DNA from: Candidatus Nitrosopumilus sp.
GTDB taxonomy: Archaea; Thermoproteota; Nitrososphaeria; Nitrososphaerales; Nitrosopumilaceae
Assembly: GCA_028343855.1 (NCBI GenBank)
Contig: JAOLZN010000003.1
Span: forward strand, 1-64,000
Direction of reading: 5' to 3'
DNA length: 64,000 bases
The position numbers were made by a program, and so were the translations under genes. This document shows, piece after piece, positions 9,716 through 63,000 of this stretch. Under the pieces are notes generated by a model. The model ran no database searches. It was not told the DNA's origin and worked only from the letters and a program-made list of their open reading frames with translations. Within the stretch, counting starts at the first letter, position 1. Every line of letters begins with the position of its first letter.

Positions 9716-10459
9716 CTATTTTATTGATTCTCCACCATCTACTGTAAGTATAGATCCAGTAACCCAAGATGCATCATCTGATACAAAATATAATACAGCT
9801 TTTCCTATTTCTTCAGGTTGACCAATTCTACCTAACGGATGTTCATTATTCATAAATTCTATATCTTTTTGATTTTTTAAAAATGGTTTTGTCATATCCG
9901 TATCAACTACTCCTGGGCAAATACAATTCACTCTAATCTTGTCTTTTGCATATTCTAATGCCCAGCACTTTGTAAGAACAATCAAGGCAGCTTTTGTCGC
10001 AGAATATGCATCCGCATTAAATCCTTGATATGCTTTTAATCCTGCATCTGATGATATGTTAATTATACAACCAGATGTTTTTTGTAAGTGAGGTATTGCT
10101 TCTTTAGTAAATCTAAACTGTCCTGTCAGATTAACATCTAATACTTCATCCCATTCATTTTCATCAATTTCATGCAATTTTTTTATTTTTGGAAATATTC
10201 CTGCATTATTTACTAAAATATCTAATCTACCAAATTTTTTAATTGTTTCATCTACCACATTTTTTACTTCATTTGTTTTTTTAATATCACATGTTATTCC
10301 AAATGAGTTAGAAATTTTTGATTTTGCTATGTTTAATTTTTCTGAATTTTTTGATGTTATTACAACTGATGCTCCATTTTCTGACAAAGTTTTTGCTATG
10401 GCAAATCCTATACCTCTACTTCCTCCTGTAATTAGAGCAACTTTACCAGATAATTTCAA
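9716..10459 (-). CDS. Short-chain dehydrogenase/reductase
   Basis: The 247-residue protein is a classical SDR: TGGSRGIGFA nucleotide-binding loop near residue 11, NNAG near 87, catalytic serine in IINISSDAG, and YSATK for the Tyr/Lys pair near 152-156. The C-terminal VDGG segment resembles 3-oxoacyl-ACP reductase and glucose dehydrogenase subgroups. Archaea lack the usual fatty-acid synthase, so the substrate is left open. Confidence 0.88.
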   Translation of the reverse strand: MKLSGKVALITGGSRGIGFAIAKTLSENGASVVITSKNSEKLNIAKSKISNSFGITCDIKKTNEVKNVVDETIKKFGRLDILVNNAGIFPKIKKLHEIDENEWDEVLDVNLTGQFRFTKEAIPHLQKTSGCIINISSDAGLKAYQGFNADAYSATKAALIVLTKCWALEYAKDKIRVNCICPGVVDTDMTKPFLKNQKDIEFMNNEHPLGRIGQPEEIGKAVLYFVSDDASWVTGSILTVDGGESIK

Positions 10460-10590
10460 TATCTTAAAAATTCAAATTCGTAATTTATAGATCAATTATT
10501 ATAAAATAATTAAAATATTTTTAAAAAATATCATTTTTTTACTAAATTTTATTAAAAAATCTTAAATACATAAATTTACTATAATAAATA

Positions 10591-10718
10591 ATGTCGAAAG
10601 TTGCTATTTCTATCGACTAGTTAGCGTAGCCCCGCAGAACGAAAAAGGCAATCAGGCGTTTAGACGCTTGACCACAAGAGGAAATCTCTTAATGTTCTGC
10701 AGTTATGGGGTTTACGCC
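10591..10718 (+). ncRNA. Candidate structured non-coding RNA, family unknown
   Basis: A locally GC-rich stretch in an AT-rich gap folds well on the plus strand. GTCGA/TCGAC (10593-10597 with 10613-10617) makes a 5' hairpin. A long closing stem pairs 10624-10628 with 10713-10717, 10630-10633 with 10707-10710 and 10634-10640 with 10694-10700, leaving a 6-nt bulge at 10701-10706. Inside are two hairpins: 10653-10659 with 10664-10670 (loop TTAG) and 10676-10680 with 10686-10690. One pair is G-U on this strand and would be A-C on the other, supporting plus-strand transcription. A TATA-like TTAAATA (10562-10568) lies about 26 bp before 10591, and a T-rich run follows 10718. It does not match tRNA, 5S, SRP or RNase P signatures I know. 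Confidence 0.6.
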
Positions 10719-11158
10719 TCTTTCTTTATCAAATCTACTGATACTGAACCCATTACATTTTGATTTGGATTAATGCTAATTGAAATATTTTGTGATGAGT
10801 TAATCATAATTTCTCCATTTCCTTCATACACCCATGTAAAATATTTTGAAGTTTCTGATTCATGAGGAATACCTATGAGATTAAAATTTTCTACAAATTT
10901 ATAATTTTGACCGGTTAATTTTATTGATAATATCTCTGGACTACTTCCATTTGGAACAAATCTAAAATAATACGTTCCTGGCTCAATTGAAAATTCATCA
11001 GTATAAACTCCATCAGTGTAAAGTTCAGGATTTGCTAAAGTTATATGAAATATGATATTATCGATTTTCTCTTTTTGATCTGAAAAGCCTGTAATCCAAT
11101 CAATTGCAATAAATCCTATTATTACTATGATGGGTATAATCATAATTTTCTTTTTCAT
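10712..11158 (-). CDS. Membrane-anchored hypothetical protein with an extracytoplasmic beta domain
   Basis: The 148-residue protein opens with a basic stretch and one hydrophobic span (about 3-22), an uncleaved signal anchor. The rest is beta-rich, including EPGTYYFRFVPNG and FTWVYEGNGEIMINSSQNISI, as in small immunoglobulin- or jelly-roll-like outer domains. The last codons overlap the closing stem of the convergent candidate RNA. No family recognised. Confidence 0.6.
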   Translation of the reverse strand: MKKKIMIIPIIVIIGFIAIDWITGFSDQKEKIDNIIFHITLANPELYTDGVYTDEFSIEPGTYYFRFVPNGSSPEILSIKLTGQNYKFVENFNLIGIPHESETSKYFTWVYEGNGEIMINSSQNISISINPNQNVMGSVSVDLIKKEA

Positions 11159-11214: not shown

Positions 11215-11273
11215 CACGTTCTGTTAAGCAATTTTTACACTTGAAATTAAGTAACAATTTCAGAATTAAACAC

Positions 11274-11915
11274 ATGACTGGTCTTGAAACTAAATGGTCA
11301 ACACAACCAAAAACAGGCATAGCTGATAAAATTAATGATACAATTAAGCCTAAAGGTCCATTAAAACCACGAGTTCAAGATGGAATAAAACGATTACAAT
11401 CACAAATTAAAAAATTAGATTCAATGTTAACTAGTTTACAAGAACGTGATGCTAAATTATTTCAAAGAATTGTTACTGCAACACAAAATCATGACGTTCA
11501 AACTAGTAAAGTTTTAGGAAATGAATTAGCTGAAGTTCGTAAAGTAACAAAAATTTTAAGCAGTGCTAGAATTGCTTTAGAACAAATTGAATTGAGATTA
11601 TCTACTTGTAATGATCTTGGTGACACTGTAGTTGCTATGGTACCAACAATGGGATTAATGAAAAACTTGAAATCTTCTCTAGGAAAAGTGATGCCTGGTG
11701 CTGAACAAGAAATTGGTCAAATGGCAGAAATGCTTGGAGGATTTATGACTGAAAGTTTCGCAGGTGACGCAGCATTTGGAATAGATGAAACAACTAACGC
11801 AGAATCTGAGAAAATATTAAAAGAAGCATCTGCTGTTGCAGAAAGTTCTACAGGTGAAATGTTTCCATCCGTTCCATCCACTAGTAAGGAACAAACATCT
11901 ACCAAATTTTTCTAG
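11274..11915 (+). CDS. cdvB: CdvB paralog, ESCRT-III-like (Snf7) protein
   Basis: The product is an archaeal ESCRT-III subunit of about 213 residues. It has the basic helical-hairpin core (KPRVQDGIKRLQSQIKKLDSMLTSLQERDAKLFQRIV) and a long second helical region ending near residue 130, then an acidic, Ser/Thr-rich tail. It aligns without gaps over the core with the second CdvB at 34745, which supports the ATG at 11274 over a TTG at 11241. CdvB proteins polymerise at midcell and are disassembled by the AAA ATPase CdvC. No winged-helix CdvA-binding domain or clear MIM motif is seen. CdvA and CdvC are not in this window. Confidence 0.9.
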   Translation: MTGLETKWSTQPKTGIADKINDTIKPKGPLKPRVQDGIKRLQSQIKKLDSMLTSLQERDAKLFQRIVTATQNHDVQTSKVLGNELAEVRKVTKILSSARIALEQIELRLSTCNDLGDTVVAMVPTMGLMKNLKSSLGKVMPGAEQEIGQMAEMLGGFMTESFAGDAAFGIDETTNAESEKILKEASAVAESSTGEMFPSVPSTSKEQTSTKFF

Positions 11916-62927: not shown

Positions 62928-63000
62928 TAGCCCGGGCAAGACTCGAACTTGCGTCTCGGGCTTCAAAGGCCCAAATGCTTGACCGCTACACTACCGGGCT
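62928..63000 (-). tRNA. tRNA-Gln (anticodon TTG)
   Basis: On the minus strand, acceptor arms AGCCCGG (63000-62994) and CCGGGCT (62935-62929) pair fully, with an A discriminator at 62928. The D arm (GTGT/GCAT), anticodon arm (TGGGC with loop CTTTGAA, then GCCCG) and T arm (GCAAG-TTCGAGT-CTTGC) fold normally. The anticodon is TTG at 62966-62964. No intron and no encoded CCA. An AT-rich TATA-like run near 63038 on this strand implies a short 5' leader. Confidence 0.96.

Follow-up and report, generated by a model that had tools for sequence, protein, structure and literature searches.

The element at positions 10591-10718 (plus strand) of the window, by which we mean the whole 64,000-nt stretch of Candidatus Nitrosopumilus DNA analysed here, is by comparative evidence a real structured RNA gene, and it has no family in Rfam. 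Comparison of genomes shows that it belongs to a family of independent small RNA genes of about 125-135 nt (bounds set by the promoter spacing and the T-rich end), specific to Nitrosopumilaceae, a major ocean lineage of ammonia-oxidising archaea. The RNA begins with a leaderless open reading frame (ORF), almost always of nine codons. The way this ORF changes among relatives shows selection on its start, frame, stop and position and not on the peptide sequence. What may be selected is the translation itself, up to the foot of the fold.

Fold, promoter and gene context

On one side of the very AT-rich gap that contains the element is a short-chain dehydrogenase (SDR) gene (9716-10459, minus strand; PF13561/PF00106). 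On the other is a convergent gene (10712-11158, minus strand), which encodes a small protein that is hydrophobic over an N-terminal stretch and matches nothing in Pfam. The GC content is 3-8% upstream and 45-52% within the element, which bears out the GC-richer island in AT-rich DNA described in an earlier note on this sequence. The minimum free energy of the plus strand is -43.6 kcal/mol (z = -4.4), and none of 200 shuffled sequences folded as well. The predicted fold matches that of the earlier note, with a 5' hairpin, a three-segment closing stem with a 6-nt bulge, and two enclosed hairpins. The 5' hairpin (10593-10617) overlaps the codons of the ORF. It is followed by the spacer between the stop codon and the closing stem, 3 nt long here (10621-10623), and by the 5' arm of that stem (10624-10640). 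The 3' arm (10694-10717), indicated by covariation as well as by folding, carries the bulge at 10701-10706; in the predicted fold the three segments pair 10624-10629 with 10712-10717, 10630-10633 with 10707-10710, and 10634-10640 with 10694-10700. Hairpin 2 (10652-10671) and hairpin 3 (10676-10690, AAGAG-GAAAU-CUCUU) are enclosed. Hairpin 3 raises the idea of Shine-Dalgarno mimicry: it reads GAGAGGNAAUCUCUC, in two copies (L078 and L080) it is GGAGGUGAUCUCC, a perfect Shine-Dalgarno-like stretch, and the family consensus GAGAGGNAAUCUC resembles GGAGGUGAUCUCC.

Is this fold maintained in evolution? In an alignment of 99 distinct copies, which was fitted to the model so that structure is favoured, 94.3% of the paired cells hold and double changes occur in 31 of 35 pairs, against a shuffle mean of 20 pairs. 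Cells changed on both sides number 363 (shuffle mean 73), and the covariation score is 0.368, compared with at most 0.071 when the arms are slid. Sliding the 3' partners by 1-3 columns lowers the pairing to 35-53%, and all covariation measures exceed those of 500 shuffles and of all slides. The MAFFT alignment A1, made without model fitting, still has 8 pairs with double changes. By helix, alignment A3 gives the following values. Helices 1 and 2 (5' hairpin) are 83-92% paired with every pair changed on both sides; helices 3 and 4 (closing stem) are 96% paired with double changes in 14 of 17 pairs, the compensatory changes that the earlier note had proposed looking for; helices 5 and 6 (hairpin 2) are 92-95% paired with double changes in 8 of 8 pairs; and helix 7 (hairpin 3) is 97% paired.

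The strand is a separate question. The minus strand of the element folds nearly equally well (z = -4.1), thus folding energy cannot settle the strand and other evidence is needed. The earlier note had argued for the plus strand from a G-U pair. Across relatives there are 204 G-U pairs against 49 A-C mismatches, in an alignment fitted to the plus-strand model, and this excess is in keeping with a plus-strand RNA. The TATA-like element and T-rich 3' end of the same note are both present. A TATA box (TTAAATA, 10562-10568, plus strand) is found upstream of nearly all copies, and the T-rich tail TCTTTCTTTA (10719-10728, plus strand) follows the stem as a probable terminator, with 1 terminator-like site against 0.1 expected. 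By these sequence features the element is an independent small RNA gene with its own promoter and terminator.

The genus has at least three paralogous types of this RNA, of which the window carries one, and further types occur in other genera. For type A, to which it belongs, the order in most genomes is inositol monophosphatase, c1, dehydrogenase, RNA, c0 and Snf7/CdvB-like. In the window the Snf7/ESCRT-III-like (CdvB-like) gene, with a weak match to PF03357 below the Pfam cut-off, is the second gene downstream of the RNA (11241-11915, plus strand), in conserved synteny. The type B locus adjoins a gene which we take, by eye, to be PurP-like. The type C locus lies antisense in the gap between two genes named by eye, presumably aroA-like and aroC-like, and this position makes a link to aromatic amino acid synthesis possible. 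The type C paralogue (MQKRVNYNE*-type; L144-L162) is present in nearly all genomes of the genus examined. Note that at most loci of type B, and at almost every locus of types A and C, the next gene on the 3' side is convergent, therefore the RNA is not the leader of a downstream gene. Its 3' end had been described as antisense to the stop of the convergent gene. The 7-nt overlap is real in the window; since the convergent gene ends before the stem in most relatives, the overlap is incidental, and a role in antisense control of that gene is not supported.

Spread and novelty of the family

A nucleotide search found matches in 87 of 200 genomes of the same family, often two or more in each. A first covariance model (R1), built with alignment A1 from 29 copies, was positive in 196 of 400 genomes of the order and reached other genera. 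A second model (R2), built from 101 copies, was positive in 204 of 400 genomes of the class, all of them Nitrosopumilaceae, with 17 more genomes of the family having no match. The covariance model of relatives proposed in the earlier note thus gives 204 positives among about 221 sampled Nitrosopumilaceae genomes, usually with two or three loci per genome. In a 300-genome sample of the phylum there were 44 positives, every one in Nitrosopumilaceae, and in 30 genomes belonging to other families of the order there was no match even with permissive filters. Outside the family, then, the RNA was found in none of the sampled genomes of the order, class and phylum, where divergence beyond the model is possible. 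By a pattern search of named genomes, the carriers are Nitrosopumilus, Nitrosarchaeum and related Nitrosopumilaceae.

Several single cases may be added. In the source genome, a 95.7% complete draft of 49 contigs, a single copy was found. The RNA was not detected in three genomes of genus g5 (G004, G026 and G042), which at 0.8 Mb are the smallest of the family and two of which are at least 93% complete, nor in G013. Viral contigs gave no match to the exact core pattern, which tests for close relatives only, and the idea of a virus-borne element was dropped. The sole exact match of this pattern in a bacterium (L227, Rhodobacteraceae IMCC1909) is probably due to chance, because about one chance match is expected.

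Has the RNA been described before? With Rfam 15 the element has no match at the gathering threshold or at E up to 5, and ten distant homologous loci have none at E up to 1, which answers the Rfam search suggested earlier. The only Rfam match in the window is a tRNA gene (62928-63000, minus strand). Ideas of a C/D or H/ACA guide RNA, which found no Rfam match, were set aside; boxes were looked for in the alignments by eye only. In the part of the full-text literature that was covered, on small RNAs of Nitrosopumilus and other Thaumarchaeota, on analogues and on ribosome geometry, the RNA is not described, and the main text of a survey of 104 motifs (PMC2864571) does not mention Nitrosopumilus, Cenarchaeum or Thaumarchaeota. 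Its novelty is thus the lack of an Rfam family together with the lack of a description in the part of the literature covered. Covariation, promoter, synteny and the Rfam result all agree with the central claim of the earlier note, that the plus strand carries an undescribed small RNA of archaea which has a promoter of its own.

A leaderless reading frame of nine codons

That claim was largely right about a structured plus-strand RNA and overlooked that its first 30 nt are a conserved leaderless ORF: ATG TCG AAA GTT GCT ATT TCT ATC GAC TAG (MSKVAISID*; 10591-10620, plus strand), with the frame conserved in relatives. The distance from the end of the TATA box to the start codon is 21-22 nt in 184 of 206 copies, and 22 nt in the window. 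Among protein genes of these organisms that have a strong TATA box upstream, the distance from box to ATG is mostly 21-24 nt (13 of 21 hits). This spacing is the arrangement expected of leaderless genes, and transcription is predicted to start at or just before the ATG at 10591.

A start followed by 8-10 codons and a stop is found in 208 of 211 distinct 5' ends, compared with 29 ± 5 after shuffling. The strict form, in which ATG or GTG stands where it is expected and the codons number exactly nine, is found in 187 of 211 (shuffled mean 1.2). Since the shuffles keep the relatedness of the copies, the manner in which the ORF changes is the stronger evidence. A tree made from the rest of the RNA, with the ORF left out, requires 36 or more changes of stop codon, each from one of TAA, TAG and TGA to another; tree error inflates this number, and the conservative count is 12, on the edges of a minimum spanning tree. 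All 12 are transitions, against 61 transitions and 62 transversions in the body of the ORF (chance about 0.0002). Copies whose first codon is now ACA, ACT or GCT (L118, L205-L207, L231, L246, L006 and L195) have come to have TTG or GTG as codon 2. The length of the ORF changes by three bases, giving forms of 8, 9 and 10 codons, whereas single-base differences in length occur in the segment that follows the stop. The exceptions are L100, in which the ORF is frameshifted, and L094, which has 12 codons and its stop inside the stem. What a leaderless mini-mRNA should have in its sequence is therefore all found: a start at the site set by the TATA box, an in-frame stop, and a frame kept in evolution.

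Some unusual copies were also seen. L143 (G146:C1:696135-696260), an AT-rich extra copy (25% GC), no longer has the nine-codon frame and is probably a duplicate in decay. At the type A locus L120 (G187:C3) the RNA core is decayed (51 bits) and the MSKGTICID* ORF and TATA box are intact; this genome holds two further copies. L082 and L099 (G049:C184) are tandem copies about 300 nt apart, with an 8-codon and a 9-codon ORF.

Is the peptide conserved as well? Close relatives differ by 23 synonymous and 100 non-synonymous changes, with expected fractions of 0.24 and 0.73, a ratio to be taken as a guide only because the hairpin in the ORF also constrains the bases. Purifying selection on the peptide, as looked for in a micropeptide gene, gives no sign among these relatives. 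Peptides such as MSKVAISID, MSLVIKSGD, MQKRVNYNE and MLVKPQKMA have length and position in common and little else. That the start and stop signals are kept and the peptide is not suggests that translating the ORF matters rather than its product.

A proposed ribosome at the foot of the fold

Where would a ribosome stand at the end of this ORF? Its footprint is about 30 nt, from which we infer that nine codons leave no room for a second one. In 140 of 146 aligned copies, 3-5 nt separate the stop codon from the closing stem. For a ribosome that has the stop in its A site and the last sense codon in its P site, the stem would begin at +10 to +12, counted from the P-site codon, at the mouth of the mRNA channel, so the whole ORF should be readable by melting at most about two stem pairs. 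In bacteria the channel takes up 11 nt past the first base of the P site (PMC7282821). Stem-loops that lie 11-12 nt downstream, with their first base at +12 to +13, bind either in the A site or at uS3/uS4/uS5 (PMC7282821; numbering of PMC8861025). Stem-loops there slow or hinder tRNA binding, and the hairpin of phage T4 gene 60 excludes RF1 (PMC7282821); with a longer-stem variant tRNA binding was not hindered (PMC8861025). By the numbering of PMC8861025 most copies have their stem 9-10 nt downstream, one or two bases nearer than the tested 11-12 and on a channel geometry that is bacterial, so pausing of the ribosome here is what we infer from those positions.

A possible course of events is as follows. 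A ribosome would bind the exposed 5' AUG of the RNA, open the 5' hairpin, read nine codons and arrive at the stop, where it would pause at the foot of the fold, with only one ribosome on each ORF at a time. More speculatively, the presence or slow release of this ribosome might set the state, lifetime or activity of the folded domain, and the RNA might report or respond to the translation state of the cell. Taken as a whole, including the single ribosome, the explanation in which selection acts on translation as far as the foot of the fold and not on the peptide leaves us almost evenly balanced, with a slight lean to doubt. Counting against it, the fixed spacing between stop and stem could partly reflect common descent, and the ORF is frameshifted in L100 and lost in L143. 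A tentative extension, possible although we rather doubt it, is that the peptide-independent ORF of fixed length brings one ribosome to the fold as a ligand that switches or stabilises the RNA, making it a ribosome-sensing or ribosome-parking device. In type C and in one copy set of genus g9 the 5' hairpin (GYAAAUU...AAUUUGC) extends over the stop codon and into the closing stem, of which it takes the first two bases. Opened by a passing ribosome, it would complete the stem, thus the idea of a switch may be strongest there.

Could the ribosome itself be the target? Under stress or starvation the RNA might trap ribosomes competent for leaderless initiation at the stop against the stem, as a reversible store. 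The leaderless start, an ORF with room for one ribosome only, the position of the stem at the mouth of the channel and the published pausing and RF1 exclusion by hairpins there (PMC7282821) would all suit it. However, the RNA would have to be abundant, two or three single-copy loci per genome are a small dose, and pausing at archaeal termination is itself deduced; we consider such sequestration unlikely. Another explanation, also unlikely, is an ordinary trans-acting small RNA that pairs with targets, the ORF being a by-product of the 5' hairpin and the spacing. An independent gene with promoter and terminator and conserved unpaired stretches, for example GAAAAAGGC in types A and B, would fit. 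Against it, the stop codons swap only among the three stops, a start that is lost is replaced at the next codon, and, except in L100, the ORF changes length in multiples of three. The RNA might also be an mRNA that encodes functional peptides of nine residues and has a structured 3' untranslated region, because start, frame and stop are conserved and like peptides recur within types (MPKDIIPID, MRKDxNPID, MQKDVKSTA). This seems improbable to us: a synonymous excess is absent, the peptides diverge strongly between paralogous types and genera, and the fold is much better conserved than they are.

A functional minus strand, as the leader or riboswitch of the gene next to the 5' end of the plus-strand element (the SDR gene in type A, aroC in type C), would agree with the folding of that strand and with the minus-strand genes flanking types A, B and C. 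It is very improbable, and as a leader of the SDR gene, aroC or the c9 gene it was rejected, on the G-U asymmetry of the plus-fitted alignment, on the plus-strand TATA box and ORF that are nearly always present, and on four loci (L107, L112, L085 and L074) where no suitable minus-strand gene follows. An archaeal tmRNA analogue that rescues ribosomes with a short tag is scarcely credible: a structured RNA with a short ORF and a stop codon recalls it, but there is no tRNA-like fold, no conserved CCA end and no Rfam match to tmRNA or tRNA, the start codon is at the 5' end, and the C-termini of the peptides are unconserved.

Returning to translation up to the foot of the fold as the selected feature, why does it matter? 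A conserved small RNA family is present in about nine of ten sampled genomes of Nitrosopumilaceae, and a comparable description was not found in the literature searched. Its design, a nine-codon ORF in which the peptide drifts and the distance from stop to stem stays at 3-5 nt, suggests a small RNA that takes the act of translation as its input. Among known systems, rnTrpL of Sinorhizobium meliloti, a small RNA derived from the trp attenuator, is likewise structured and has as its 5' end the ATG of a short leaderless ORF, of 14 codons, that encodes peTrpL (PMC7298713). In that system the peptide acts in trans, whereas the archaeal RNA has no regulated downstream gene, an ORF fixed at about nine codons and an unconserved peptide. 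As in leader-peptide attenuators, a short ORF overlaps a hairpin ahead of more structure, and the position of the ribosome could set the fold; unlike attenuators and riboswitches, the RNA is not upstream of a co-oriented regulated gene, and an enriched sensor codon is not evident. The stem-loops of dnaX, HIV gag-pol and T4 gene 60 also place a stem at the mRNA entry with a given codon in the A site (PMC7282821, PMC8861025), but the slippery site and continuing frame of such frameshifting or pausing elements are not seen here, and the ORF just ends. Haloferax sRNA132, whose abstract reports no conserved ORF, is similarly an archaeal intergenic gene with its own promoter (PMC6560208).
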